From: Mytilus galloprovincialis
Taxonomy: Eukaryota > Mollusca > Bivalvia > Mytilida > Mytilidae
Reading direction: 5' to 3'
Assembly (NCBI RefSeq): GCF_965363235.1
Contig: NC_134847.1
Coordinates: 47,743,305 to 47,807,304, forward strand
Length of the DNA stretch: 64,000 bases
How positions within the stretch are numbered: the stretch's first letter is position 1; every line of letters starts with the position of its first letter. This document shows, piece after piece, positions 49,061 to 63,061 of the stretch. The position numbers were made by a program, and so were the translations under genes. The notes beneath the pieces are model-generated. The model was given only the letters and a program-made list of their open reading frames with translations. It searched no databases and was not told the origin of the DNA.

Positions 49061-49395
49061 ACAACATCAGTTCACAAAAATCGAAAAGCAGCATGAATCC
49101 ACACCTGAGAAAACACTTGCCATGAACTTGGTTGCAATGGAATAGTATACAGTTCCTGTTCCGATATTGATACATGTCATGCAACTCATTGGCCACTAAA
49201 CATTCTGTGATGTCACACTATAGATTAACAGACAGGATTGTGGTTATGATAAATCAAACTTATCCATGGTTATCTGTGACACAGATATTCAATACCAATT
49301 AACCCCTAGCATGAAATCCATAAAACTTTATCACAGATGATTTCAAATTTACAATTTGAAAACTCTGGTTTAGGGAGCTACCATTTGATTTTTAT

Positions 49396-49590
49396 GGGGG
49401 GGGGGGGGGGGGGGGGCTAGGATGAAAAATGTTGTCCTGCATTTTTTTTTTAGTTGCAATCTCTGTCCTGCCTTTTTATTTTTCACTCTATTCGGTCCTG
49501 CCTTTTTTTTATTAGTTTATCCTGACTTTTTTTACCTAAACTGTCATCCTGCCTTTTTTTTTTGAAAAGTGTCTCATCCTGAGTAGTAGG
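49396..49590. repeat. Poly-G run and cctgccttttttt low-complexity repeats
   Basis: A run of more than 20 G at about 49397 is followed by four to five diverged units of 'tcctgccttttttt'. The array breaks off at catcctgagtagtaggg (about 49580), where the sequence turns GC-rich. This may mark the host/Polinton junction. Confidence 0.5.
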
Positions 49591-49600
49591 GACGGATCAG

Positions 49601-49617
49601 TTTGAGGCACCCTCAAA
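49601..49617. repeat. Short hairpin at the left edge of the Polinton
   Basis: tttgagg-cac-cctcaaa is a perfect 7-bp stem with a 3-nt loop, just inside the presumed left boundary. Its role is unknown. Confidence 0.35.
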
Positions 49618-49629
49618 ACACAGGGCGCT

Positions 49630-49940
49630 AGGGCGCTGACGTCATATGCGCATGCCCCGCCCCCAATATGATATATGGGCATATACTAGCCCTAATGACG
49701 TCAGCGGAAGTAAGGAAGATGAGTCACGACGGATGGACGCCGGTCATATTTGGTCATGACGCAACCATGAATCATCAGGACGCAAGATCAGGGCATGACT
49801 CACTACATGATAATACCATGAGTCATACCGAATACACGCCGCCCATATTTGGTCTTGTTGTATAGCTCTGACGAGTCAGACTTCAATACATGGCCACGTG
49901 CTGAACCAACCAATGAGGACGAAGCATAGGTATATAAAAC
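49630..49940 (+). promoter_or_regulatory. Early promoter/enhancer with clustered CRE, AP-1, GC, E-box, CCAAT and TATA sites
   Basis: Visible sites: TGACGTCA (CRE) at 49637-49644 and 49696-49703; CCCCGCCCCC GC box at about 49655; TGAGTCA/TGACTCA (AP-1) at 49720-49726, 49796-49802 and 49819-49825, and a variant CGAGTCA at 49872; TGACGCAA at 49757; CACGTG at 49895-49900; CCAAT at 49910-49914; TATATAAA at 49931-49938, 52 bp before the PC4-gene ATG. The density of bZIP sites in about 200 bp looks like a viral immediate-early enhancer that responds to host stress or immune kinases. Factor identity and function are inferred from motif matches. Confidence 0.7.
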
Positions 49941-49982: not shown

Positions 49983-50492
49983 ATGGACAAAACACGTTGC
50001 AAAATTGAACTGGGGAACAATAGATTTGTACAAGCCACTGAATGGAATGACGAAATTCGTATAGACGTTAGAGAGTGGGAGCTCAAAGACGAAAAGTTAA
50101 TCCCAACGAAAAAGGGGATCAGCCTTCCACTGCACAGATGGAAGCTACTGGTGGACAATTTCGAGTTTTTGGACCAGGCCCTAACGGAGAAGAGGGTGTA
50201 CCAATCTCATCTTGGGGGAAATGTCTACGCATCCGTGCAGATCAAAAGCGTTTGCTTGGACCTTCGTCAACATTGGCTACCCCCCAACAACACGGAAATC
50301 GTCCCCACCAAGAAGGGAATTTGTCTACGGCCCGCAGAATACGTAAAGCTAAAAGACGTGGCGAGCGTGATTGGTGACTTCGTCCCGGAATTATGTTCCA
50401 TCGTCCCTTGTCCATACAGTTCGGATCATCAAAACCAGCTGGGATTCTTGAGATGTTCTGAGTGTAATCCAGACCACTTTACGGAATGGTGA
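49983..50492 (+). CDS. Tandem PC4 (p15)-domain ssDNA-binding / transcription coactivator-like protein
   Basis: 169 residues with two copies of the PC4 fold. Repeat 1 (about 12-66) has EIRIDVREWE, then IPTKKGISLPLHRW and a helix ending LDQAL. Repeat 2 (about 79-137) has CLDLRQHW and VPTKKGICLRPAEY with a similar helix. The strand-strand-[PxKKGI.L]-helix pattern is the hallmark of the eukaryotic coactivator p15/PC4, which binds melted promoter or single-stranded DNA as a dimer. Two domains in one chain could form an intramolecular pair. The C-terminus adds a Cys cluster (C143, C158, C161). It is the first gene of the element, behind the AP-1/CRE-rich promoter and a TATATAAA box, so probably early. 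Roles could be ssDNA binding in replication, or working with the element's TBP in transcription; the latter is my inference. Confidence 0.82.
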   Translation: MDKTRCKIELGNNRFVQATEWNDEIRIDVREWELKDEKLIPTKKGISLPLHRWKLLVDNFEFLDQALTEKRVYQSHLGGNVYASVQIKSVCLDLRQHWLPPNNTEIVPTKKGICLRPAEYVKLKDVASVIGDFVPELCSIVPCPYSSDHQNQLGFLRCSECNPDHFTEW

Positions 50493-50660
50493 AATATAGA
50501 CAATGGATATGAACTTTTCGTGAAAGTTTGAAAGACTTGAAAATATTCATGTTTGCTGGGATTCTTGAGATGTCCAGACCACTTTACGAAAGGGTGAAAT
50601 ATAGACAATGCATACGAACTTTACGTGAAATTTCGAAGGACTGGCTGATATTCATTCACA
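50438..50660 (+). repeat. 117-bp tandem duplication of the PC4-gene 3' end
   Basis: The segment from gctgggattcttgagatgt at 50438 is repeated from 50555. Both copies continue with ccagaccactttacg.a..ggtgaaatatagacaatg.ata.gaactttRcgtgaaa. The first copy contains the stop codon; the second is non-coding 3' UTR. There are internal small deletions in copy 2. Confidence 0.75.
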
Positions 50661-50692
50661 TTTGTTGTAATTATTCCAATGTATAGTGATTT

Positions 50693-50698
50693 AATAAA
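50693..50698 (+). terminator. AATAAA polyadenylation signal of the PC4-like gene
   Basis: AATAAA in tgatttaataaaatgtag, 200 bp after the stop codon. It suggests that the PC4-like gene is a separate transcription unit from the CARD/TBP genes. Confidence 0.55.
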
Positions 50699-51206
50699 AT
50701 GTAGAACCTTTAATTCGATCTCGGCTTTTCTATTCACGATTCTTCAAGGAGTATTTTTCTGTGTTTTGAAAGGAGGGAAGAAAACAAATACATGGAAAAG
50801 TATTTTTCGAGGTTTCGGGAGATTAATATAATGAAAATTCAAGAAGTATTTTTCCGATCGCTATGTTTATCATTATTGTTTTTAATGAATAGATGTTTTA
50901 AAATTCTAAATAGCGACGAAAAGTTCTTTTCGAAATTTCATGAATAAATTGAAAGTCCCCTCCCTTACAGGTAAACAACGAATCGGTTCATGAAATATCA
51001 CTTCAACCCGAGATAGCCTTTATCAAATTCTGTCTGGTCGTTGTATTATGACTACCAGCGGAGGAATGTAACATTATAGCAATACACTTGAGATAGCGCT
51101 AATTGCATGTACATCTCCATTAACAATACAATCATACACCATGCAAATTTCCGATATCACGTGATCCCGTCTAATCTAATTCCCCAATCAAAAAACTATG
51201 AATCGT
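50699..51206. other. Intergenic spacer with three AGTATTTTTC motifs
   Basis: No gene. The motif AGTATTTTTC occurs at 50750, 50799 and 50845, always in a setting such as caagRAGTATTTTTC. A fourth form (AGGTATTTTTC) lies at 57687 after the last plus-strand gene. The small ORF 51107-51298 overlaps the CARD gene in another frame and is not supported. Confidence 0.5.
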
Positions 51207-51214
51207 ATATAGAA
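51207..51214 (+). promoter_or_regulatory. TATATAGA box of the CARD/TBP unit
   Basis: TATATAGA in gaatcgtatatagaagcttg, 52 bp before the ATG at 51259. This is exactly the spacing of TATATAAA to the ATG of the PC4-like gene, suggesting that both belong to the same (early, host-TBP driven) class. Confidence 0.5.
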
Positions 51215-51258
51215 GCTTGTAGAAACAAACCAACCTCATTTCATTGCGATCCGTTCAC

Positions 51259-51531
51259 ATGGACAGACGTGATCAAAAGAATCTCATCAGAAATTTAGGC
51301 CGACTGGTTGCGGAAACACCCACGGATCCCGTAGTGCAATATTTGGTCGATAAAAACATTTTGACTTCCGAGCTGGCCGAAGATATCCTCTATCAAAACA
51401 CGAGTAGAAATAAAATTGGACAACTGGTCTTCACTCTCGCGAGAAGAGGACCCAAAGCCTTTGGAGGATTCGTCGAAGCTCTCCGATTCAACGACTGTGA
51501 GGAATTAGCAGAGGCACTGAAATGCAACTGA
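51259..51531 (+). CDS. CARD (caspase recruitment domain) protein
   Basis: 90 residues that are essentially one death-fold domain. Helical segments match a CARD: an N-terminal NLIRNLGRLV helix, 'VVQYLVDKNILTSELAEDIL', then 'NKIGQLVFTLARRGPKAFGG' and 'FVEALR'. The RRGPKAF.xF.EAL signature is that of caspase-2/9-type and related CARDs. I chose the ATG at 51259 (cacATGg, good context); an upstream in-frame TTG is not credible. The last 10 nt overlap the TBP-gene start. A stand-alone CARD usually works by binding CARDs of caspases or adaptors, so the product probably interferes with (or triggers) host apoptotic or inflammatory signalling; that is inference. Adintoviruses are known to carry Bcl2-like apoptosis regulators, which makes such cargo plausible. 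Confidence 0.82.
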   Translation: MDRRDQKNLIRNLGRLVAETPTDPVVQYLVDKNILTSELAEDILYQNTSRNKIGQLVFTLARRGPKAFGGFVEALRFNDCEELAEALKCN

Positions 51532-52028
51532 CCAACGTTGTCGTACAAGCGAATTTGGGATGCTCGTTCGATCTACGAGAGCTGGCCTACAGATTACCCA
51601 ACGTTCGTTACGACCCCCGTACATTTTCGGACCTCATTTGGCAACACCGAAAGATTGGAGGAAACTGTTTGCTATTTTCTAATGGAATCATCAACTGTAA
51701 CGGGAAATGTCTGTCCATACAAGACGGTCGACGTCGTCTCCGACGTTACGCCAGACTACTACAACAGATGGGTAACGACGTACGACTCACACAGGTTCAA
51801 ATACTAACGGCTTCAGCCTCTCATCAATTAAGCGGACGTGTCGATCCCTATCGACTACCGAGCGAATTCAGTTTCGAACCGGAAATTTTTCCCGCTGTCA
51901 TGTTTCGTCGTCACGGCATGCATTTCACCTGCCATCTCTCCGGTAAGATAATGATCACGGGTCTGAAATCTCAGCGCGATGTTCAGGAGGTATATCCCGT
52001 CCTCTTGGAGATGGAACTATACCTATAA
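51522..52028 (+). CDS. TATA-box-binding protein (TBP) homologue
   Basis: 168 residues spanning the whole bipartite TBP core. Repeat 1: NVVVQANLGCSFDLRELAYR, then 'YDPRTFSDLIW', 'CLLFSNGIINCNGK' and the helix 'RRLRRYARLLQQMG'. Repeat 2: 'VQILTASASHQLSGRVD', 'FEPEIFPAVMFR', 'SGKIMITGLKS', then a helix ending 'VYPVLLEME'. Of the four Phe that kink TATA DNA in cellular TBP, three are present (F35, F52, F123); the fourth position appears to be His (H138). The first conserved DNA-contacting Asn is kept (N5), while its partner in repeat 2 is not (Ile). These changes fit altered box preference. It starts inside the CARD gene (10-nt overlap), and its stop codon TAA is part of a TATAAGAG box at 52024. 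A transcription role for the element's own genes is inferred. Confidence 0.85.
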   Translation: MQLTNVVVQANLGCSFDLRELAYRLPNVRYDPRTFSDLIWQHRKIGGNCLLFSNGIINCNGKCLSIQDGRRRLRRYARLLQQMGNDVRLTQVQILTASASHQLSGRVDPYRLPSEFSFEPEIFPAVMFRRHGMHFTCHLSGKIMITGLKSQRDVQEVYPVLLEMELYL

Positions 52029-52031
52029 GAG
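52024..52031 (+). promoter_or_regulatory. TATAAGAG late-type box (68-aa gene)
   Basis: TATAAGAG begins 32 bp before the ATG at 52056 and contains the TBP stop codon. First of the series described in the findings. Confidence 0.7.
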
Positions 52032-52055
52032 TCCTCGACGATCGCCAAAAGAAAG

Positions 52056-52262
52056 ATGGACAAGACGTACATATTCGTACTCTTTGCAGAGAAACCCAGC
52101 GACATTTACGTGGCATTGGCCAAGACATGTCAGACACCGGAACACATCGAGTCTTACCTCTCCGATCCTTACCTGACACACCAACCGTGGAAGTACGAGA
52201 TGATTCGGGCTTATTTGGATTGTTATAAGAACAAAACCGACACCAATATGATGCGATCATGA
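52056..52262 (+). CDS. Small conserved-type Polinton protein, function unknown
   Basis: 68 residues, starting MDKTYIFVLFAEKPSDIYVA with a helical, acidic and aromatic C-terminal half (YEMIRAYLDCYKNK). I do not recognise a domain. Its stop codon overlaps the integrase start in an ATGA arrangement (52259-52262), and a TATAAGAG box lies 32 bp upstream of its start. Tight packing and the box support a real gene. Small proteins of similar size often precede or follow the integrase in Polintons, but no role can be given. Confidence 0.65.
   Translation: MDKTYIFVLFAEKPSDIYVALAKTCQTPEHIESYLSDPYLTHQPWKYEMIRAYLDCYKNKTDTNMMRS
52224..52231 (+). promoter_or_regulatory. TATAAGAA box (integrase gene)
   Basis: One-base variant (TATAAGAA) of the series, 35 bp before the integrase ATG at 52259, inside the 68-aa gene. 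Confidence 0.5.
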
Positions 52263-53356
52263 CGTATGAAGACTACTTGAAAAAAGCCTATTACGACCCT
52301 AGTCATCCGGGATCGTATGGTGGAGTGGAGAAACTATACAAAGCGGTACGCAAGGAAGGAAAATACGTATTGGGAAGAGCAAAAATCAAGAAATGGTTAG
52401 AGGGACAAGAGACCTTCGGTTTGCATCGTCAAATCAATCGTTCCTTTCGTCGACGCAAAGTGATCGCTCCTTTTATCGACTACCAATGGGACGCCGATAC
52501 TGCCGTAATGAAATCGTTCAGCAAAGAAAACGACGGATACGCTTATTTTGTCGTGACCATCGACGTCTTTTCTCGCTTTGCCAACACGCATCCCTTACGC
52601 TCGACACAAGGCAAGGAAATGGTGACCGCCCTACAGACCATATTTCGTCGTGGAAGGAAACCTACCAAGCTAAGAACCGATAAAGGTGTCGAGTTCCGAA
52701 ACAGAGACGTTCAACGATTGTTAACAGCCGAGAAGGTTGACTTTTTTTACACCCAGAACGAACAGAAAAGTTCTTACGCCGAAAGATGCATCAAGACGCT
52801 AAAGTCCAGACTCTACCGGTACCTATCCCGTCATCAAACGCATCGCTGGATCGACGTTCTCGACAAGATCACCCAGAGCTATAATGCCGCCTACCACCGT
52901 TCCATCAAAATGGCTCCCCGTGCGGTGACTAAAAAGGACGAAACCCGACTGTGGAAACTCCAGTACTCGACGCAACACTACGTGAAACCAACGACACGAG
53001 GTTACAAGTTCCGAAAAGGAGACACCGTCCGCATCTCGCACGTTAGGCAGCCGTTCGATCGAGAGTACGACGAACGTTGGACGATGGAGTATTTCGTGGT
53101 GGACGACCGAGGCACGAAAGATGGCATATCGTATTTCACGTTGAAGGACACGCTCGGTGACGGCGTGCAGGGCACGTTTTACCAATCGGAACTGAACAGA
53201 GTGAGAGTCACCGAGCAAACAATGTACCGAATCGAAAAAGTCATTCGCCGAAGACGCCACGACGCGCTCATCAAATGGATGGGATGGCCAGTGAAATTCA
53301 ACAGTTGGATCCCCTTGTCGTCCTTGAAAGACTATAAGAGTGGTGAACACGAATAG
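52259..53356 (+). CDS. Polinton integrase (RVE, DDE family) with C-terminal chromodomain
   Basis: 365 residues. The catalytic triad is visible as D80 (in YQWDADTAVM), D141 (in KLRTDKGVEF) and E175 (in SSYAERCIKTLK), with 33 residues between the last two, as in retroviral-type integrases. Residues about 1-60 form the helical N-terminal part. About 245-315 is the SH3-like DNA-binding region (FRKGDTVRIS, then FYQSELNRV). 322-356 is a chromodomain (YRIEKVIRRRRHDALIKWMG, then NSWIPLSSL) that may direct insertion to modified histones. It inserts the element into host DNA with short target duplications in known Polintons. The ATG overlaps the stop of the preceding small gene. No lesion is seen. Confidence 0.95.
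   Translation: MTYEDYLKKAYYDPSHPGSYGGVEKLYKAVRKEGKYVLGRAKIKKWLEGQETFGLHRQINRSFRRRKVIAPFIDYQWDADTAVMKSFSKENDGYAYFVVTIDVFSRFANTHPLRSTQGKEMVTALQTIFRRGRKPTKLRTDKGVEFRNRDVQRLLTAEKVDFFYTQNEQKSSYAERCIKTLKSRLYRYLSRHQTHRWIDVLDKITQSYNAAYHRSIKMAPRAVTKKDETRLWKLQYSTQHYVKPTTRGYKFRKGDTVRISHVRQPFDREYDERWTMEYFVVDDRGTKDGISYFTLKDTLGDGVQGTFYQSELNRVRVTEQTMYRIEKVIRRRRHDALIKWMGWPVKFNSWIPLSSLKDYKSGEHE
53333..53340 (+). promoter_or_regulatory. TATAAGAG late-type box (114-aa gene)
   Basis: TATAAGAG at the 3' end of the integrase gene, 33 bp before the ATG at 53366. Confidence 0.7.
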
Positions 53357-53365
53357 TGTGCAACC

Positions 53366-53710
53366 ATGGACCAGTCCATCGTATACGGACGCATTCATTT
53401 TTTGAGGGAATTGGGAGAGGCCAATAAATCGACGAGAAAACTGTTGGTACGATACATGACGAGAGAACAGATGGAGGCCGTGTCCGAAGTCGTCCAATTC
53501 ATCGTCCTAGGATCCATCCGCATCCTCCCGCAAGACGTTCGTCGCTTGAGAGAGCGTTCGCTGATCATGCGTCAACTGGTCGATTCTAGAATGTCTTTAC
53601 AGAGGAAAAAGAACGCTCTGATGACCTATCACGAGATGATTCCTCGTCTGTTGCGACCCCAGTATCTCAATCGAGCCATCGTTCTGTCTATCCGATCGGG
53701 AGAACAATGA
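53366..53710 (+). CDS. Small basic helical protein, paralogue of the 57100 gene
   Basis: 114 residues, rich in Arg/Leu and helical. Pattern: FLRELGEANKSTRKLLVRYM, then 'QMEAVSEVVQFIVLGSIRI', then an RR-rich helix 'DVRRLRERSLIMRQLV', and a final 'SLQRKKNALM'. The same order of segments (leucine-rich helix, Q-ALxEIxxNI-GxI, a K/R-rich helix, then SxxKxxxL) is found in the protein at 57100-57411, so the two are diverged paralogues bracketing the morphogenesis genes. Similar short basic proteins are frequent in animal Polintons next to capsid genes and could be virion core or assembly factors; no direct evidence here. A TATAAGAG box precedes it. Confidence 0.7.
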   Translation: MDQSIVYGRIHFLRELGEANKSTRKLLVRYMTREQMEAVSEVVQFIVLGSIRILPQDVRRLRERSLIMRQLVDSRMSLQRKKNALMTYHEMIPRLLRPQYLNRAIVLSIRSGEQ

Positions 53711-53714
53711 TATT

Positions 53715-53722
53715 CATAAGAG
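53715..53722 (+). promoter_or_regulatory. CATAAGAG late-type box (penton gene)
   Basis: CATAAGAG, 34 bp before the ATG at 53749. It lies downstream of the first in-frame ATG (53707), which argues that 53749 (or 53752) is the true start. Confidence 0.65.
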
Positions 53723-53748
53723 TCAACTCACGGAGAGGTGGTGATGAC

Positions 53749-54174
53749 ATGATGGAAGATTTCTACTTGCACCTGTTCAGCGGCGATTCGCTCTCGACCC
53801 ACGCCGACAACCACGCGGGAAACTTCGTGGTAGATCTTCCCAAGAGATTCCTGCTGGAAGGTACGTGGGAATGCGCTCTGACGGAACTCGCCCTACCGTC
53901 TCAACCGGAACGCCAAACCCATCGACTCTACGTCTGTGCCGACGTGGTAGAGGAATCCTACGCACGGAACAGTTTCTTGCCGCTCTTGCGATCCACCGAA
54001 CCGCTCGAGGAAGGAACTTTGGAGTATACCAAACCTTATTACGTCAGATTACGTCAAACAGACTTGAATCGGGTGCGAATCTTTATAAGAGACGACCAGT
54101 TACGGGCATGTCGATTTAAAACCGACCTTTTGTACTGCACGCTTCACCTCCGCAGACGGAGATGGGATCGATAG
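53749..54174 (+). CDS. Putative penton / minor capsid protein (single jelly roll)
   Basis: 141 residues from the ATG at 53749 (155 from 53707). The N-terminus MMEDFYLHLFSGDSLSTHAD, followed by 'NFVVDLPKRFLLEGTWECAL' and 'TELALPS', fits the well-known start of Polinton minor capsid proteins. In these, an FYxxLxS motif is followed by DNxxxxFxxxLPxxxxLxGxWExxLxE. The rest is strand-rich (YYVRLRQTDLNRVRIFIRDD). The family is predicted to form a single jelly roll filling the penton vertices. Upstream lies the 114-aa gene and downstream (13-nt overlap) the 98-aa gene. The upstream start at 53707 would place the promoter box within the coding sequence. Confidence 0.75.
   Translation: MMEDFYLHLFSGDSLSTHADNHAGNFVVDLPKRFLLEGTWECALTELALPSQPERQTHRLYVCADVVEESYARNSFLPLLRSTEPLEEGTLEYTKPYYVRLRQTDLNRVRIFIRDDQLRACRFKTDLLYCTLHLRRRRWDR
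54084..54091 (+). promoter_or_regulatory. TATAAGAG box (98-aa gene, long spacing)
   Basis: TATAAGAG inside the penton gene, 78 bp before the ATG at 54162. An ATG at 54108 opens only a three-codon uORF. Spacing is unlike the others, so function is less sure. Confidence 0.45.
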
Positions 54175-54458
54175 AAGTGTACGACCACAAGTCACAACGC
54201 TGGATACCGTACGTTCCCGATCACAAAAAGTGGGAGCAGCATTTCTCAGACCTATCGGCAGGAAGGGTCCGACCCGACCACAAGGGACGATACCTCGTGG
54301 GCAGCGGCGCCCGTTGGCGCCCAGAGTCGACGCCCAAGGTACAACTGGTGACGCCGTTGGCGCAGACCCTCGAGATGGCCAAATCGGAACTGGCCCCTCC
54401 GAAAGTTATAAGAGGACGAAAGCGCAGGCGAACGTTCAATCAACTGGATGAATCATGA
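54162..54458 (+). CDS. Small Polinton-type protein between penton and capsid genes
   Basis: 98 residues. N-terminal half with aromatic/proline motif (WIPYVPDHKKWEQHF, then 'GRVRPDHKGRYLVGSG'), then 'VQLVTPLAQTLEMAKSEL' and a very basic stretch RGRKRRRTF. I associate this order, a W-PYVP segment, PDHxGRYxVG, and a VTPxAQxxEMAKSE helix, with short proteins encoded between the two capsid genes in invertebrate Polintons. The basic tail could bind DNA in the virion; function unproven. It overlaps the penton gene by 13 nt and the capsid gene by 4 nt (ATGA). Confidence 0.6.
   Translation: MGSIEVYDHKSQRWIPYVPDHKKWEQHFSDLSAGRVRPDHKGRYLVGSGARWRPESTPKVQLVTPLAQTLEMAKSELAPPKVIRGRKRRRTFNQLDES
54407..54414 (+). 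promoter_or_regulatory. TATAAGAG late-type box (major capsid gene)
   Basis: TATAAGAG, 48 bp before the capsid ATG at 54455. An out-of-frame ATG sits at 54448. Confidence 0.6.
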
Positions 54459-55717
54459 ACCACTTGGAAGAAAATCACGAAGACGAACTGTCCCTGTTTT
54501 CCCCTCCACCCGCCAACACGGGGATACAGAGAAGAGAATGGATAGAATTTAGACCGACGAATCAAATCAGTGCGGACGCTCCCTTGGACTTCTCGATTCC
54601 GTCGCAATCGGCCGCCTACATGGATCTGAAGCGAAGTTCACTGAAAGTCAAACTGCGTCTCCTGAAGGCCGACGGTACCTCGGTCGCCAAAGACACCAAC
54701 GTGGCATTAGTCAACCTGTCGCTTCAAGCCCTCTTTTCTGAGGTGGAATGCAGTCTTCAACAGACGCCCGTCGCGCAAATGGGATCCAATTATCCGTTCA
54801 AGGCCTACATCGACACCTTACTGGAGACCGGAGCCAGCGATAAAGTACTATTAGATTCGCAGCTCTTTAAGAGAGACACGGCCGGACATCTCGACGACGC
54901 CAACGCCCAAGGCGGAGAGAACCAGGGATTGTACCGTCGCTCTTTATACACCCGAGAAGGCAGGATCCTGGAGATGGAAGGACCTTTACATTTGGACGTG
55001 TTTCGTCAACATCGCCTGTTGTTGAACGGCATCCCGTTGACCCTGAAGTTGTGGCCCAGTAAGAACGCCTTTCGCCTGATGTCCAGCGACGACGACGCGG
55101 CTTACCGAGTGCAGATCCTGGATGCCGCCTTCAAAGTGTGTCTACAGACACCAAACGCCGGAGTGTTGATGGCCCACAGCAAATTGTTGGGAGACGACAC
55201 GGCCATGTATCCGTTCGTAACCAGTCACTTCAAGACGGCTTCCGTATCCAAGGGAGAGTACGGATTCATCGAGAACAATTTGTTCCAGGGAGACGTTCCC
55301 AGCCAATTGATCGTGGCCCTCGTCAGCAGCGAAGCCTTCAGCAGAAGTTATAAGAGATCGCCGTTTAATTTCCAGGGGTTCGACTGCAACTTTGTGGGAT
55401 TGTACGTCGACGGACAATCGTACCCCAGTCAACCGCTACAACCCAATTTCGCCGGTAGAAACTACGTGGACGCCTACAGGACACTCGCCACCTTCAGGGA
55501 CGACGTAGACGTCTCCCTCTTGGATTACGCCGGTGGGTTTGCCCTCTTCGTCCTCAACGTCGACGATCGAGTCGATTTCAACGCCAAGCGGAGAGGAGAC
55601 TGTCGACTGGTAATCAAATTCGGGACGCCCCTGCCGGAGAGCGTGACCGTCCTGATGTACGGCAAGTTTCCCAAAGTGATGCACGTGGATCAATCTCGAC
55701 GCGTCTTGCTACAATGA
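54455..55717 (+). CDS. Putative major capsid protein (double jelly roll, F54H12.2-like)
   Basis: 420 residues. Starts with an acidic segment and DELSLFSPPPANTGIQRREW, then 'DFSIPSQSAAYMDL' and strand-rich sequence 'LKVKLRLLKADG'. Further segments include 'MGSNYPFKAYIDTLLETG', 'LPHLDVFRQHRLL-like' (HLDVFRQHRLLLNGIPL) and, near the end, 'GDCRLVIKFGTPLPESVTVL'. The layout (SP.PPxxTxI start, dissection into repeated beta regions, NGxPLxLxL middle) is that of the uncharacterised F54H12.2-like proteins. I associate these with Polinton/adintovirus double-jelly-roll capsids. It sits between the penton-like and protease genes as in other Polintons. Fold assignment rests on family resemblance and position. 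Its stop overlaps the protease start (ATGA). Confidence 0.7.
   Translation: MNHLEENHEDELSLFSPPPANTGIQRREWIEFRPTNQISADAPLDFSIPSQSAAYMDLKRSSLKVKLRLLKADGTSVAKDTNVALVNLSLQALFSEVECSLQQTPVAQMGSNYPFKAYIDTLLETGASDKVLLDSQLFKRDTAGHLDDANAQGGENQGLYRRSLYTREGRILEMEGPLHLDVFRQHRLLLNGIPLTLKLWPSKNAFRLMSSDDDAAYRVQILDAAFKVCLQTPNAGVLMAHSKLLGDDTAMYPFVTSHFKTASVSKGEYGFIENNLFQGDVPSQLIVALVSSEAFSRSYKRSPFNFQGFDCNFVGLYVDGQSYPSQPLQPNFAGRNYVDAYRTLATFRDDVDVSLLDYAGGFALFVLNVDDRVDFNAKRRGDCRLVIKFGTPLPESVTVLMYGKFPKVMHVDQSRRVLLQ
55349..55356 (+). promoter_or_regulatory. TATAAGAG octamer inside the capsid gene
   Basis: TATAAGAG in agttataagagatcg, part of Ser-Tyr-Lys-Arg codons, 365 bp before the protease ATG. It may be coincidence or an internal promoter for the protease, which otherwise has no box of its own. 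Confidence 0.25.
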
Positions 55718-56199
55718 ACAACCGAGAGGTGGAAAGAGAGCTGAGAGACCAACACGTCCGAGCCATCTGTGCCGACGAATTAGTGCGACCACAGAGACCA
55801 CAGACGTACGTCGTCAACACCGATCCGTGTTCCAGACCTGGGACTCACTGGACCGTGTTTCGTTTTCCTCTTCAAGGACCCCCCGAATTTTTCGACTCGC
55901 TGGGAAACCGTCCGGGTGACTACCATCGTCGCTTCGAAGAAGTACTGGGACCTACCTATCTGTATACGCCGGATGCCGTCCAACCGGAAGACAGCAATAC
56001 CTGTGGAGCCTACTGCATTCATTTCGTCCGGGAGAGACACGGCTCGCGATCTTTTCAAGAGATCCTCAACGACTTTAGCACCGTAGATCTGCGAGACAAC
56101 GATCGCAAAGTGAAAAAGTTCATAAGAGGAAGAATTGGTACAACCCGTCGAGGATGGAGCGCGAAAGCAGTACGAACGATAGCGAACGATGGCAAGTGA
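55714..56199 (+). CDS. Adenain-like cysteine (maturation) protease
   Basis: 161 residues. Catalytic pattern H45-W46 (PGTHWTVF), D61 (EFFDSLG), Q90 and C97 (VQPEDSNTCGAYCIHF). The seven-residue step from Q to C and the CG..C context match adenovirus-type and Ulp1-fold proteases, including those of Polintons, which cleave capsid precursors during assembly. Length is somewhat shorter than adenain. The C-terminus is basic. The ATG overlaps the capsid stop by 4 nt, and its 3' end overlaps the membrane-protein gene by 46 nt. No box lies at the standard distance, so it is probably co-transcribed with the capsid gene. Confidence 0.92.
   Translation: MNNREVERELRDQHVRAICADELVRPQRPQTYVVNTDPCSRPGTHWTVFRFPLQGPPEFFDSLGNRPGDYHRRFEEVLGPTYLYTPDAVQPEDSNTCGAYCIHFVRERHGSRSFQEILNDFSTVDLRDNDRKVKKFIRGRIGTTRRGWSAKAVRTIANDGK
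56121..56128 (+). promoter_or_regulatory. CATAAGAG late-type box (membrane protein gene)
   Basis: CATAAGAG within the protease gene, 33 bp before the ATG at 56154; supports that ATG over the later in-frame one at 56199. Confidence 0.65.
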
Positions 56200-56387
56200 T
56201 GGGCAGTCATTTACCCAAATCGGAAATCGTCTACTTTTGCCAGATGATCGTCGTCTACGTCATCATCATCACCTCGATCGCCAACCTGTCGATGCAAAAC
56301 GGCAAGAGCGAACTGTGGATCACGCTGTTGAGTAGTGCCATCGGATACGCCTTACCCAGTCCCACGCTCAAATCGTCAAAGTCATAA
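56154..56387 (+). CDS. Small two-helix membrane protein (holin-like topology)
   Basis: 77 residues. A polar N-terminus is followed by one long hydrophobic helix (IVYFCQMIVVYVIIITSIAN, about 26-45) and a second shorter one (LWITLLSSAIGYALPSP, about 54-70), then a short polar tail. This is a hairpin membrane protein similar in layout to small membrane proteins between protease and ATPase genes in other Polintons. It could act in membrane remodelling or virion release; no enzymatic motif. Overlaps the protease gene by 46 nt. Confidence 0.65.
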   Translation: MERESSTNDSERWQVMGSHLPKSEIVYFCQMIVVYVIIITSIANLSMQNGKSELWITLLSSAIGYALPSPTLKSSKS

Positions 56388-56390
56388 GAG
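56383..56390 (+). promoter_or_regulatory. CATAAGAG late-type box (ATPase gene)
   Basis: CATAAGAG, 34 bp before the ATG at 56417 and 22 bp before the ATG at 56405. The standard spacing favours 56417. Confidence 0.65.
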
Positions 56391-56416
56391 AAGACCGATA
56401 GAGAATGACAATAACC

Positions 56417-57070
56417 ATGGTGTTTCCGTTTTTACCTTGTACCAGCATGTGCGTCACGGGGATGACCAACAGCGGGAAGACGCGATTCGTGTACAGACTA
56501 TTGACACATGTAAAAGAGATGTACGCCGACGAACCACCGGAGGCCATCTTGTATTGCTTCGGCATCCACCAGCCGCTATTCGAAGAGATGGAAAAGACGA
56601 TTCCCAACATCGTCTTTCACGAGGGCTTACCTACGATGGACACGGTCCGGGAATTCTCCGCCGATAGACGTCATCGGTTAGTCGTTCTAGATGATCTGAT
56701 GCATCAAGTAGTGCGCGACGTTGACATGGAACTTCTTTTCACACAGGGATGCCATCACAGACGATTGAGCGTCTTGTTTCTGACCCAAAACCTATACGTA
56801 CAAGGATCCAGGTCGAGAACCATCGCCCTCAACACGACGTACTTGGTTCTGATGAAAAACGTGAGAGACGTCTCCCAGATCATGACCTTGGGGCGACAGC
56901 TCTATCCAGGACGTTGGAAGATACTGATGCAGAGCTTCGAGGACGCCACATCGACCCCCTACGCCTACTTAATCGTCGACTTGGCGCCAAATTCCGACGA
57001 TACCTATCGTTTGAGGACCCATGTGTTCCCCGGAGAAGATACGACGGTCTACGTTCCACAGAAATTATAA
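56417..57070 (+). CDS. Genome-packaging ATPase (A32/FtsK-HerA type)
   Basis: 217 residues from 56417 (221 from 56405). Walker A is GMTNSGKT (residues 15-22 from 56417), Walker B is RLVVLDDL with the acidic pair at about 92-93, and the polar sensor motif is FLTQN (about 121-125). This order and short length match the packaging ATPases of Polintons, poxviruses and other double-jelly-roll viruses. The start at 56417 has the best context (accATGg) and the standard distance to the CATAAGAG box. The fold is complete and intact. Confidence 0.93.
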   Translation: MVFPFLPCTSMCVTGMTNSGKTRFVYRLLTHVKEMYADEPPEAILYCFGIHQPLFEEMEKTIPNIVFHEGLPTMDTVREFSADRRHRLVVLDDLMHQVVRDVDMELLFTQGCHHRRLSVLFLTQNLYVQGSRSRTIALNTTYLVLMKNVRDVSQIMTLGRQLYPGRWKILMQSFEDATSTPYAYLIVDLAPNSDDTYRLRTHVFPGEDTTVYVPQKL

Positions 57071-57073
57071 GAG
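57066..57073 (+). promoter_or_regulatory. TATAAGAG late-type box (103-aa gene)
   Basis: TATAAGAG 34 bp before the ATG at 57100; it contains the stop codon of the ATPase (taa), just as the box at 52024 contains the TBP stop. Confidence 0.7.
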
Positions 57074-57099
57074 GAACGAACACACCACACTCATCAGGC

Positions 57100-57411
57100 A
57101 TGAGTCGACTGCTGGACACCCATCACCATTTTCTACACCTGTTGCGGATCGCCAAGAAAGACCAGCGAAAGGCGTTGTTAAAGACCATCGACAAATCTCA
57201 ACTGAAAGCCTTGTGCGAGATCGCCCACAACATCATCAAAGGCACGATCGTGCTAACACCTTCGGAGAAACTCCGACTGAAGCGATTCAAAAAGATCATC
57301 AACATCTTGGGCAGAAAGTCGTCGACGAGAAAAGAAAGAATTCAAGCTCTGCATAGGGGAACAGCAACCGTCGTTCGTCTTCTCGACGTCGTAGAGAGAT
57401 GGAGAAAATGA
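57100..57411 (+). CDS. Small basic helical protein, paralogue of the 53366 gene
   Basis: 103 residues, very rich in Lys/Arg/Leu. 'FLHLLRIAKKDQRKALLKTI', 'QLKALCEIAHNIIKGTIVL', 'EKLRLKRFKKIINILG', 'SSTRKERIQAL' in the same order as the protein at 53366. The family is typical of the capsid neighbourhood in animal Polintons. Possible roles are DNA condensation in the virion or a minor internal virion protein; neither is shown. An upstream in-frame extension (to 56749) runs through the ATPase gene in another frame and is rejected. Confidence 0.7.
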   Translation: MSRLLDTHHHFLHLLRIAKKDQRKALLKTIDKSQLKALCEIAHNIIKGTIVLTPSEKLRLKRFKKIINILGRKSSTRKERIQALHRGTATVVRLLDVVERWRK

Positions 57412-57572
57412 TCCTGGTACCTTACGACCGATACCAAACACTCTTAGCCGACCAGAAAAAGTCGCAGACGGGGGAAGGAACAAAGAAGAAGAAACCGAAA
57501 CTAGGACCTCCCGGAATACCAACCAATCACCACGTGGATTCCAAGAACAATAAAACATGGATTGAACTTTGA
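57399..57572 (+). CDS. Short protein with MILVPYDRY start, unknown function
   Basis: 57 residues from the ATG at 57399. A second ATG at 57408 overlaps the previous stop as ATGA and may be the used start. It begins MEKMILVPYDRYQTLL, then a Lys-rich stretch (GTKKKKPKLGPPGIPTN) and ends NNKTWIEL. I associate an N-terminal KMILVPxxxY and a PPGIP segment with a short protein that follows the helical protein in several animal Polintons. It is too short for the usual gene-length cut-offs. Function unknown; restart translation from the preceding mRNA is likely. Confidence 0.6.
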   Translation: MEKMILVPYDRYQTLLADQKKSQTGEGTKKKKPKLGPPGIPTNHHVDSKNNKTWIEL

Positions 57573-57634: not shown

Positions 57635-58716
57635 AAAAAAATGTAGATTAGACGATCGAGTACGTTGTTTATCATGGAACATCAAGAGGTATTTTTCTAC
57701 TCGCCGAAGTGTAGGCACTTTGTGGCGTTGAAAAACACCTTTCGAAGTTTCATACACCCAAGTCCTTGCTTTAATAAGACGACACATGTTACAGCATGAC
57801 ATATATTTATTCAAATGTACACATTATTTACAGACACAAAAACATTACACAATTACCATTCGATATCATTCCAAGCAAACATTCATAAAAACAATACTTT
57901 ATGTTTACACTTAAAATGTCATATCTTTTCAATTTCGACACGTTAAAATTCATACATTTTGGAAAAATGGATGTAGAAAAATAAAAACTTCATAAAAAAA
58001 TATTCACCGTCCTGTGTTATTTCCATATCGTTTTCGAACGTTTTCATTTCATTAACTCATCAGTTTTTGATCGCTTAAATTTCCAAAGAATCTAGTTTTA
58101 CCCGTTTAAAATCGAACTATGGACCCATGTCGAGTCTCCACGTTTTACTACAGGAAATGTATGGAAACCAACACAAAACGTAAAACAATACATATGTTTA
58201 CACTTCAAATGTCATATCTTTTCAATTTTGATACGTTAAAATTCATACATTTTGGAAAAATGGATGTAGAAAAATAAACCTACATGGAAAAATGTTCACC
58301 GTCCTGTGTTATTTCCATATCGTTTTCGAACGTTTTCATTTCATGAACTCATCAGTTTTCGATCGCTTAAATTTCCAAAGAATCTAGTTTTACCCGCTAA
58401 AAAATGAAATATGGACCCATGTCGAGTCTCCACGTTTTACTATAGGAAATGTATGGGAACCAACACAAAACGTAAAACAATACATATGTTCACAGTTCAA
58501 ATGTCATATCTTTTCAATTTTGACACGTTAAAATTCATCCATTTTGGAAAAAACGGATGTAGAAAAATAAAACTACAGGAAACATATTCACCGTCCCATG
58601 TTATTTCCAACGCTTTCATTTATTAACTGTCCACTTTTGTTGGATGTAAATTTCAACACCATACCAATTGTCCCGCTTAAATTATTATCAAAAATGGATC
58701 ATACGAAAAACAAATA
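57635..58716. repeat. Convergent spacer with 2.5 copies of a 292-bp tandem repeat
   Basis: The unit beginning atgttYacactt.aaatgtcatatcttttcaat occurs at 57901, 58194 and 58486 (periods 293 and 292 bp). Its core includes cgttaaaattcatacattttggaaaaatggatgtagaaaaataaa, accgtcctgtgttatttcc and cccatgtcgagtctccacgttttacta. The third copy is partial and ends near 58640. No protein is conserved in it. It separates the rightward genes from the leftward polymerase gene. A role in 3'-end formation, dsRNA generation or replication is possible but unproven. A GGTATTTTTC motif lies at 57688. Confidence 0.75.
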
Positions 58717-61700
58717 TCATTCAGAGTCACTTTCAAAGTTGGTTTCCAAAAGATGAATCAGATAACGATCGTTATCGTCTAGGTCTACCTCCGTGATAGT
58801 TTCGTCGACTTCCATCGGTTTTTCGGACTCGTCGATTTCCATCGGTACTGAACATAGTTCTAAATCGAGGGGAACGGTAGACACTCCGTCTTCTAACACT
58901 CTCCTCTTGCAATAGAAATATGAAAACCCATTTCTAGTTTGTTGATAGGTGGAGATGCCGTTGTTCCTGGCTCGGAATCCTTTGAGCGTCCCATTTCCCA
59001 CCCGTTGGGTGTTGAGCACGTGTCGGAATGTGGTCATGGGAGCTTTGACCCGTCTCTTGGTAATACCTTTCGAGCTAAATTTCACTTCTCTGAGGAGACG
59101 CGGACGATGAATCAGACGCTTCACCGGGAGCTTCTTGGCACGTCTGAGGAGTCGGAAGGCTGCCATCTTTGTGTTAGAAGTGTGGACGAGCTTAGTCTTT
59201 TGTACGATGTACGTTTTCGAGCAGAGACCGATCATGACGTCACCCTCGTACTCCACTTTGAAGAGACCCGGGGTTCTCTTGTCGTACTTGGCGTGCTTGG
59301 TGCAACACGTGCGCGGGATCCAATCGGGTTCAAAATCGTCCCGACAACAACCGGTGAGAGCTCGTTGGTAAGCGTCTTTCATTTCCGGTCTGATGACGGA
59401 TGCTAGGTCAGGTCCGGACAGAGCCATGTAGGCGGAATCGGTGTCCATTTCGCAATACTCGAAATCGGATCGGTCGACGTATACATCCAGAAATTCTTAA
59501 CTTCCCGTACTGTAAGATAAAGTAGCCAATTTGAATGGGAAGGTTGATGTCGAGTCGCTCTTTCGATTTTTCGACCTCGAAATATTCGTCTTGTTCCAAT
59601 AGGGTGGTCAGTTTTTTGAACTGCGGTTTATTGGCTTCTAGCATGACTCGGCCTTCCCCTAAGACGTACGTCACGGACTGAAACTTTTCCTGGTCCATGA
59701 TGGTGCCGCCGTAACCACTATTGCCTTCAAGTTTGGAGGTTTCGGCGATAATGGCTTTGTCCGGATTGGCGTCTCCCAGTCGTCGATTGTCGCTGACGAC
59801 TTTAACGAAATCCCTGAAACATCGCTGCGGTTTAAATTCCAGCACCTGATATATTTTGGTGACGAGCATGCCGTGTTCCAGGTACCATTTCAGGAGCGGG
59901 GTGGCGATTAACATCTGACGCGCACGCATCCCTCCCACCAGCAGGCGACGAGGTTTCTCCGACAATTCGAAACGACGGACGTGATCTTGCATGTGATCGC
60001 CGATAAGGTCGAAAGGAACGTCGGTGGTGCAGAACAAAGGTGACATCTCTGCGAAATATTCGTACGGCGTCATGGTCGGATGTCGAAAGTACGACGGCCA
60101 TTCGTCGGGTACCCGGATGTCGCATTCCACCATACCGAAGAGCCGACCGCTGGCTACGCCCTCTAGAATTTCGGTTTCGGTGACGGATCGTTGCGGGGTC
60201 GGCGGTTTGCGGGAGTCGCAAAAGGATTTCAGCTGTCCGTGTCTTCTTATATCGTTACGGAAATGACATTCCCATTTCTCGACGATGTTATATCCTTGTG
60301 CTTGTATTAACGTGGTGGTCTTGACGGTTTTGTCGTACTTGGCTTGACGGGTCTCGCACCATTTCTGATCTTTGACATTTTTGGTCATCCAACAGTCGTG
60401 ACCGTGCCAGTAGCAGCCGTGGAATTGGTAGACGGTGTTGGTATTGGCGTCGTAACCGTCGACGGGATACGGACCGATCTTTTTTTCTTTGCCGGTGTTT
60501 AATTTGTGTTTTATGTCTAGACTCCGTGTGTGGTTGAGATAGTCCATCCAGTCGTACATGAGGGTGTACTTGTCTCGTTTCTGCGGTTTAAAGCCGTCTT
60601 CTACTCGTCGCCGGACGAACGATCCCGTCGGCATCTCTTGGTCGATGCAATACAGATATAAAGCATTAGCGTCGAACCCGAGTATCTTTAGACACGGTCT
60701 AGTGAAATCGCTCCGGATGAACGTTTGTCCGACTTCGTGGTGGCGATTAAAGATGATGGACGGACCGCCGATCAAGTTGTTCTTGAGAGTGAAATAGAGG
60801 TCACTGTTGGCCTCGTCGAATAAGGCAAACGAGGCACCGGCTTGTCGACCGGTGTCGAAGAGCATCCGGCGTGCTAATCCGGGTACGGAGATGCTGGTCT
60901 TGAAGAGGTCGATGTCCCGCTCAAAGTAAATTTTCTGTAGATTTTCCACGGCTTGGACGAAAGGTCCGACGTCGAGATTGTTATACCAGACGAGGAAATC
61001 TCGAAAGGTCGACATACCGTTCACGGACCACTCGCGTTGGCAGTAAGCGTAGTCTTCTGTTGAGATGTTACATTCCTTTAATGAGCTGTAGAACTGTTCG
61101 TGAGATGGTAGTGTCGGATGATGTAACTTGTCGACGTTGTCGAACCATTCGTATGGGAAGAACCCTTTATTTTCTGTGACGTCGTATGCTTTCAGAAATT
61201 TGGCATAGCTACATCCGGGAGCCAAATACGACGTAATGTCTAAAAATTTGAAAGTCTCATTGGCCAAACAGGCGTAACTGTTGTTGCGTTTGACCGTGAA
61301 TTTTTGTCCCGATTCGTGCATGTTTAATGTTTTGGCCAAGTGTGTCTTGATTAAATTCATGTCGTATTTCGCAGAGTTGAATCCGAGAACGACGATCTGC
61401 CGACAATATGCGTCTAGCTCTTCTTTTAGTTTTAGGTAAACCGTCTTCTGGTTTTCGATTTCCTCTAGAAGTTCTGTGTCGTCTAAAAAGGCGTCCAGTT
61501 TGTACTCATCCTCGTCGTCGTCTTCTAGGAGGGCACGGTACGGGTTCTGAATGTCGGCGTCTAGTTGGTGGAAAGCGTCGGCAAATTTCTGTCGTGTTAA
61601 TTCATACGCTTTATTGCTTATTTCACTCATGTAATCGACCATGTGTTGTACGAGTGACTGGACGTCGGGATCGACGAAACACTGGGGTTCGAAAAATCCC

Positions 61701-63001
61701 TCCACATTAGAACAGACGGAGACGGAGATGGGTTCGTGTCGCTGTGTCCAGGTGAGTTTGTCGGAATTGGATTCTTGTATGGACACCAGCATGGCCTCGA
61801 AATCGTAGACGACAAACCACGGGTATAACCGATCTTGGACGCGGATGCCGTGTTCTTCCAGTTTATCGAAGATGGTTTTGGGGTTGGAATAAAATCCGCC
61901 TTTGAAGCGGTAGACGGTCTGGCCGGTACATTTCAGTTGGTGTCGTTTCATGTTGTTGACGTGTTTAAAATGGCGATCGCACGTACCGCACTGGTATTTT
62001 TGAGTGTAGGCCGGCAAGTTGGCGATGTACGATAAATGATGGTCGAATTGGTTGACGTGCATGGTATCGTCGTAATGGCAACGGGATTTGTAAACGGTGA
62101 GTGCCACGCCGTCGTCACGTAGATGGTACACGTTGACGTTGATGCTAAAACAATGTTCGAAATATGCCATCTGGTGGAGCGGAAGTCCTTGAAAGTTCGT
62201 CGAATCGAGTTGCTTGTCGGCTGCAAATTGGATCCATCGATCGAACAACGCTCTAGTGTGGGTTTCCAATCAGTCTGTCCGATGTCCGTGGTGCACGGCC
62301 AGGCAACGAAAGGCGCACAGGTGGTCTTTGTATACGTGTTTTCCATTTCGAGTTTTATCTAAAGCCACGATGGATCTAGAATTCAGAATGTAGTCCGGTA
62401 GCTTCACGGCGTTGCCCAGGGGATAGTTTAGGTAATAGAAGACGAATCGGACGTTGGTGACTAAATACGGTTTCCATTTCGTGTCGGGTCTCTGACGTAA
62501 GATGTAGTCGGTGACGTTAAAACGTTTAAGACGTAATTTCAACCGGTTTAGATCTTGGCGTCTGGAGACGTAAATGGGTCTTTGAAAAAGACTTTCGTTC
62601 TGAAATGGCCGGAAGTAACGGTATTCTCCGGTTTCCGTATGTCGTAATATCAAACCGAATTCCAAATTGAGACGAAAGGCGTGACCCTGGCGATCATAGA
62701 GACGTTCAGCTTGCTCCATCAATTGGGGGACGGTGAAATCGTTGGTGAGTGGAACGTTATAAGTTGATGTCACGGAACTCTCGCTGTGATTCTCTAAGAT
62801 GAGGGGTGCATTGGCCTCGTAAACGGTCTTCAAAGCTCCGTCTTCCTCCACTTCCCAGGGGGCTTCATCGTGGGTCCAAGGTCGAGATTGTAAACCTCCG
62901 GCACCTGTCTGATAGTGGTGTTGCATACCGTGTAGGTACAACTGGCGTCGATTGTCAAATCGTGCAGTGCATCTCCGACATCGGAAGGTCCTCTCGTCCA
63001 T
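58717..63001 (-). pseudogene. Protein-primed family B DNA polymerase, interrupted by a stop and a frameshift
   Basis: Reading leftward, the N-terminal part (63001-62273) has a C2H2 finger (FRCRRCTARF, then H..H). An in-frame TGA follows at 62272-62270, after which the same frame runs on to 59408. That part shows a second Cys/His finger (CGTCDRHF), exonuclease motifs VVYDFEAM (Exo I) and VLGFNSAKYDMNL (Exo II), polymerase motif A GFDANALYLY, a FHGCYWHGH motif, and motif B SKLEGNSGYGG. Near 59500 the frame shifts, and the last part (open from about 59500 to 58717) carries motif C EMDTDSAYM, KFSSKGITK, and an acidic tail. All catalytic motifs are kept, so inactivation is recent, or one or both lesions are sequence errors. 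The start is the ATG at 63001. The frame continues to an acceptor-like ttattgtttcag at 63054, so a spliced upstream exon is possible. Confidence 0.9.
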
Positions 63002-63061
63002 ATCTGGTCTAGAACTAGGCCCAGGTTGAGGCGATCGAATGACCGAAGAAGTCTGAAACAA

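Follow-up and report, generated by a model that had tools for sequence, protein, structure and literature searches.

An integrated Polinton in the genome of the mussel Mytilus galloprovincialis encodes its own TATA-binding protein (TBP) and carries the octamer YATAAGAG ahead of eight of its ten capsid-module genes, 32 to 78 nucleotides (nt) before their starts. The element lies in a stretch of 64,000 nt (contig NC_134847.1, positions 47,743,305 to 47,807,304; the whole stretch is called the window, and plain position numbers refer to it). A preliminary description of this DNA had proposed a private transcription switch consisting of the TBP, a tandem PC4-domain protein and a dedicated promoter box. 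The observation of octamer and TBP itself was confirmed, and the assignment to the Polintons is supported by an integrase, an ATPase, a capsid protein, PolB and inverted repeats. We consider it probable from the sequence data that the viral TBP recognises YATAAGAG, which would switch the capsid module on via host RNA polymerase II (Pol II) after the early genes.

The octamer and the element-encoded TBP

Between positions 52021 and 57411, YATAAGAG occurs nine times in sense and never in antisense orientation, and it is absent from the other parts of the element within the window; 2000 dinucleotide shuffles gave a mean of 0.10 and a maximum of 2 occurrences. Eight of the nine copies precede gene starts at distances of 32, 33, 34, 78, 48, 33, 34 and 34 nt, the spacing being near-fixed (32–34 nt) in six. 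Five copies lie within 30–36 nt of a listed start, which was not reached in any of 100,000 draws with random placement of nine sites; because the start list omitted open reading frame (ORF) 56154, this test is conservative. Octamers with one mismatch are few (three sense, one antisense). The complete conservation of the octamer at the compared sites carries no weight here, because these had been chosen by exact match. The first base of the box is T, C or, once, G, and a single letter is changed in comparison to the TATA box (TATAAAAG to TATAAGAG).

The encoded TBP shows the two-repeat saddle of its family and a Pfam match above the cut-off, and with 25–30% identity to cellular TBPs it is recognisable by plain sequence. 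We scored ten residues, which we take to be minor-groove contacts of TBP, in 43 aligned viral TBPs. They were numbered via alignment to 1cdw, by which F284 and F301 correspond to residues 123 and 138 of the window protein. The latter keeps six of the ten contacts and has four changed (N60, I94, T96 and H138), in agreement with the changed DNA-contact positions proposed earlier. Among the 43 viral proteins, N163 is kept in 40 (three gaps), V165 in 39, F193 in 41, F210 in all, F284 in 37 and T309 in 42. Three positions differ from cellular TBP in nearly all relatives, namely T218 (N in 39), N253 (V, L or I in 38, N in none) and V255 (T in all 43), whereas the fourth, F301, is replaced by H in 25, including the window TBP, and kept as F in 14. 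E119 and E121, presumably TFIIB-contact residues, are kept in 34 and 40 of the 43 proteins, respectively. No relatives of either the TBP or the capsid protein outside this genome were found by scanning viral contigs and genome contigs, and a tblastn search of the capsid protein against phage records gave no match. Among annotated bivalves, homologous proteins are on record for Crassostrea and Pinctada, and in the case of the capsid protein also for Ostrea. Two other TBP candidates were discarded: the viral-contig match L056 is a chance match, lying antisense in an ORF of 1114 amino acids (aa) among ORFs that look phage-like by eye and lacking the octamer, and L008 (C3:53073603) is a canonical TBP exon.

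Distribution of TBP, octamer and PC4 among related elements

Related elements of the same genome carry both TBP and octamer. The TBP of the C7 element, whose capsid frame is broken, is 59% identical to that of the window; it has seven exact boxes, of which six precede starts by 34, 37, 75, 88, 36 and 33 nt, and the variant GATAAGAG precedes a 76-aa homologue of ORF 56154. The TATAAGAG box behind the TBP gene recurs in C6, C7 and C2 (L004), and the C2 loci L004, L015 and L016 contain 2, 4 and 4 octamers, a C11 fragment (L006) one.

For comparison, we used nine Polintons without TBP (L043–L048, L051–L053), sampled from 41 PC4 and 92 capsid matches. None of the best 12 candidates of a whole-genome TBP search fell at these nine places, and a TBP profile search of the fetched loci found none in the TBP-less ones. 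A box was present 12–100 nt ahead of 15 of the 26 capsid-module starts at TBP-carrying loci (17 of 28 including the decayed relic L049), but ahead of none of the 44 starts in the nine TBP-less elements, in line with the co-occurrence that the preliminary description had named as support. These counts use the first ATG of each frame, which hides some boxes, and exclude one C6 row caused by a slicing artefact; a few of the 44 rows represent ATGs inside capsid frames that are broken (L043, L046), while L052 and L053 contribute one and three rows. TATAWA was found upstream of seven of the 44 starts, and no other motif shared by the TBP-less elements could be pinned down by eye. Their background amounts to three sense and one antisense octamer in 70.7 kb (none in L043–L048, one in L051, two in L052, one in L053).

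Upstream of PC4, both in the window and in the displayed relatives, and upstream of TBP in C7 and C2, there is TATATAAA, TATAAAT or TATAAAG, whereas TATAAA is absent from the capsid module of the window. With canonical boxes at PC4 and, in C7 and C2, at TBP, and octamers in the capsid module, these elements thus use a different type of box for each of two gene sets. The tandem PC4 protein, which had been counted as converging evidence for a private switch, did not hold up in this role, because tblastn detected homologues of nearly the whole length in the TBP-less Polintons L034–L040 of the same genome. In L034 and L038, the two that were read, two PC4 stretches are fused with a CARD in one protein. 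We therefore rejected PC4 as a TBP-specific partner and regard it as a general part of these Polintons that is not tied to the box.

CARD was matched in six of the seven elements L034–L040, all except L039. The CARD-PC4 fusions are located at L034:1213-2028 and L038:1207-2025, and the CARD protein of the window (51244-51531) stands alone beside TBP. A CARD in Polintons may bear on apoptosis or innate immune signalling of the host. Between CARD-PC4 and integrase, at L038:1991-2629 and L034:2071-2604, the place that TBP has in TBP-carrying elements is taken by a protein in which a hydrophobic stretch was seen by eye; its C-terminus is weakly PC4-like in L038 (E 0.056) and without match in L034.

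Alternative readings

Several observations weigh against the proposed pairing of TBP and box. The TBP-carrying elements are close kin (capsid identity 57–98%, against about 32–39% for the nine TBP-less ones), so the co-occurrence may represent one evolutionary event, and the TBP-less loci are partly redundant, since their matches show L044/L045 and L047/L048 to be near-duplicates. The decayed relic L049 contains three octamers, and TBP was not found between its PC4 and integrase genes. Of the comparison across relatives suggested in the preliminary description, the contrast between elements with and without TBP stands, but L049 corresponds to the opposing case named there, octamers without TBP, albeit with broken frames; a deletion of TBP accounts for it most simply. 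The decayed relative L050 has no octamer in the 5.5 kb read, L005, one of the two C2 TBP copies, has none in 1.5 kb behind TBP, and the C2 ATPase gene lacks an exact box. Some octamers are found elsewhere than at capsid starts, at L041:1890 in the C6 right arm, in L042, twice in L054, and at L018:6843, about 350 nt before a match to integrase where TBP was not found; the one in TBP-less L051 precedes by 44 nt an ATG that belongs to none of the counted genes. Within the window, no canonical TATA box was seen by eye in the upstream stretches read for TBP (behind CARD) and PolB, and no box is present in the 100 nt ahead of the integrase and protease genes. Because the start of each overlaps the preceding stop, the latter two may be read from the mRNA of the preceding gene.

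The main doubt is that the boxes may be ordinary TATA boxes read by the host TBP, the viral TBP competing with it or hindering host transcription, for example. The genome possesses its own canonical TBP exon. A crystal structure shows wild-type plant TBP on the G(-26) variant of the TATA box (1qn5), which presumably equals TATAAGAG, and a table in PMC9504043 lists TATAAGAG among frequent promoter octamers (the species of that block of the table being outside the excerpt); the host TBP could therefore serve the boxes, which leaves the attribute "dedicated" unproven. We nevertheless regard this as unlikely, since promoters using the host TBP need no single exact octamer, the PC4 genes and the TBP genes of C7 and C2 use the other motifs instead, the capsid-module starts of the nine TBP-less Polintons lack the octamer, and the viral TBP retains six of the ten listed contact residues. 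It is less probable still that TBP and boxes were merely co-inherited in one clade and that another element-encoded or host factor reads the boxes. The close kinship, the boxes kept by L049 and the presence of further element-encoded candidates, PC4 and an ORF that looks C2H2-like by eye, would agree with this, but the motif is shaped like a TBP site, shares its length of 8 bp and lies as far from the starts as is typical of a TATA box. The element carries its own TBP and we know of no helper for animal Polintons, which makes it very improbable that the box is the late promoter of a helper virus. Virophages do have regulatory elements in common with their giant virus, according to an excerpt of PMC11464507. 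It is hardly credible that the octamers are an artefact of codon usage or base composition in the capsid module. Five of the nine lie within coding sequence, and synonymous shuffles of single genes were individually non-significant (P 0.036 to 0.14); for the set as a whole, however, the artefact is contradicted by a mean of 0.39 in synonymous-codon shuffles, with none of 2000 reaching five, and by the lack of antisense copies and the near-fixed spacing. We do not count the octamer at 55349 as a promoter box, as it encodes a conserved capsid motif and is probably a codon passenger.

Proposed mechanism and comparison with known systems

In the two-stage programme that we favour, host TBP would act early on canonical boxes, yielding PC4, the CARD protein and the viral TBP, and the latter would then bind YATAAGAG and recruit host TFIIB and Pol II via its retained TFIIB-facing residues E119 and E121. 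PC4 may help at promoters or in replication. The capsid set is placed late because of its gene functions, with PC4, CARD and TBP as putative early genes. Host Pol II would be needed because no RNA polymerase subunit gene was seen in the element of about 16 kb. Since transcription usually starts about 30 nt behind a TATA-like box, six of the eight boxed mRNAs of the window would be almost leaderless. Chances seem about even that the element has an early/late code of its own, in which a TBP altered at four minor-groove positions recognises a one-letter variant of the TATA box, placed 32–34 nt before most late starts, and host Pol II produces near-leaderless late mRNAs. If true, this code would have arisen separately from the TATT system of herpesviruses, and in an element roughly ten times smaller.

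Polintons are regarded as ancient relatives of many DNA viruses of eukaryotes (excerpt of PMC7805220). The window element is like known Polintons/Mavericks and adintoviruses (Preplasmiviricota) in its RVE integrase, PolB, probable protease, A32-like ATPase, double-jelly-roll capsid protein, inverted repeats and size of about 16 kb, but adds TBP, a CARD gene and an array of TATA-like boxes. In literature searches, with most subscription papers outside their coverage, neither TBP nor PC4 nor CARD turned up as part of a described Polinton, Maverick or adintovirus, and no account of Polinton gene timing through TBP was found; term searches were empty in PMC11071308 and PMC11071296, and TATA, promoter and PC4 are unmentioned in PMC9952930. 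The TBP-like proteins of beta- and gamma-herpesviruses read TATT boxes at late genes (excerpts of PMC4893493 and PMC7498053), and their late pre-initiation complex (BcRF1, ORF24, UL87) likewise combines a viral TBP-like protein with an altered TATA box. With the box YATAAGAG instead of TATT and a TBP recognisable by plain sequence, the window system is alike in logic without being a member, in a comparison of TBP and box. TBP homologues are also encoded by giant viruses, asfarviruses, iridoviruses and mirusviruses (excerpt of PMC10132985), which share the TBP fold with the window element but are large viruses; megavirus, at least, has genes for RNA polymerase subunits as well (PMC11464507).

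If true, the presence of TBP and matching box in about 16 kb would mean that temporal control by a viral TBP needs no large genome, and the two would provide a compact natural protein/site pair for studying the evolution of TBP specificity. Intact Polintons with this TBP are predicted to carry the box, and those without it to lack the box.

Structure of the element

Terminal inverted repeats are a hallmark of Polintons/Mavericks, and their target-site duplications comprise about 6 bp. The right repeat lies beyond the window at about G000:C10:47808551-47808869, and blastn of flank against flank showed 97.7% identity over 216 nt and matched a further outer piece of 59 nt; no matching flanks were seen by eye beside the outer repeat ends, which are approximate. 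The distance of about 16.2 kb between these ends fits the 15–20 kb of Polintons/Mavericks (excerpt of PMC4028283). The features are listed in the table.

Table. Features of the Polinton within the window.
Feature	Position	Strand	Remarks
Left terminal inverted repeat	49373..49797	.	blastn left vs. right flank; outer end approximate
Tandem PC4-domain protein, 169 aa	49983..50492	+	Pfam PC4 1.4e-23, two stretches; canonical TATATAAAA box upstream
CARD-domain protein	51244..51531	+	Pfam CARD 5.6e-12; ORF from TTG, first in-frame ATG 51259; overlaps TBP start
Element-encoded TBP, 168 aa	51522..52028	+	
Box TATAAGAG	52024..52031	+	32 nt ahead of ORF 52056; contains TBP stop codon
68-aa ORF behind first box	52056..52262	+	related ORF in C7, C2; stop overlaps integrase start
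RVE integrase, weak chromodomain match	52259..53356	+	Pfam rve 9e-11
Box TATAAGAG	53333..53340	+	33 nt ahead of ORF 53366
114-aa protein	53366..53710	+	apparent paralogue of ORF 57100 (by eye)
Box CATAAGAG	53715..53722	+	34 nt ahead of ATG 53749
141-aa capsid-module protein	53749..54174	+	
Box TATAAGAG	54084..54091	+	78 nt ahead of ORF 54162
98-aa capsid-module protein	54162..54458	+	
Box TATAAGAG	54407..54414	+	48 nt ahead of major capsid protein
Major capsid protein, double-jelly-roll, 420 aa	54455..55717	+	
Octamer TATAAGAG in capsid gene	55349..55356	+	no gene start behind; encodes conserved capsid motif
Probable adenovirus-type cysteine protease	55714..56199	+	Pfam Peptidase_C5 0.0019, below cut-off; start overlaps capsid stop
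Box CATAAGAG	56121..56128	+	33 nt ahead of ORF 56154
77-aa protein	56154..56387	+	hydrophobic stretches (by eye); homologues in C7, C2
Box CATAAGAG	56383..56390	+	34 nt ahead of 56417, the likely ATPase start; first ATG (56405) at 22 nt
A32-like packaging ATPase	56405..57070	+	Pfam Pox_A32 8.8e-5, 22.5 bits vs. cut-off 22.8
Box TATAAGAG	57066..57073	+	34 nt ahead of ORF 57100; contains ATPase stop codon
103-aa protein	57100..57411	+	last capsid-module gene
292-bp tandem repeat, 2.5 copies	57888..58609	.	between two gene blocks
PolB, three separate frames (58717-59448, 59408-62269, 62270-63061)	58717..63061	-	broken in this copy; no octamer

The integrase is of the RVE type found in Polintons (Pfam rve, 42.4 bits against a cut-off of 32.6), its Chromo match (0.0012) being below the cut-off, and the major capsid protein is the double-jelly-roll type of Polintons. 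The ATPase corresponds to their FtsK-like packaging enzyme, with a Pox_A32 score just below the curated cut-off; homologues were matched in seven of the nine TBP-less loci, L052 and L053 giving no match in the 7 kb read of each. The homologues of PolB contain PF03175 and are named DNA-directed DNA polymerase in UniRef, and the window pieces themselves gave no Pfam polymerase match. In L043, L047 and L048, the match to ORF 53366 sits behind the ATPase, which is the place of ORF 57100 in the window. The window and C6 Polintons are 98% identical in TBP and integrase, and their PC4 genes (49983-50492 and, in the C6 copy L041, C6:17719827-17720333) lie at opposite element ends, so the terminal arms seem to have been exchanged.

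Polinton capsid proteins P0126, P0141 and P0165 are filed under genomes of bacterial symbionts (Thiodiazotropha, Sedimenticola), probably representing clam DNA in the assemblies. A C2H2 zinc-finger-like ORF (by eye) is located in the right arm of the element outside the window (L042:675-1061, minus strand). The PolB piece 59411-62269 (minus strand) contains a Vsr-like endonuclease motif matching Vsr endonuclease structures (E 0.00016). The tandem repeat separates the convergent gene blocks and was matched in the C6 copy as well.

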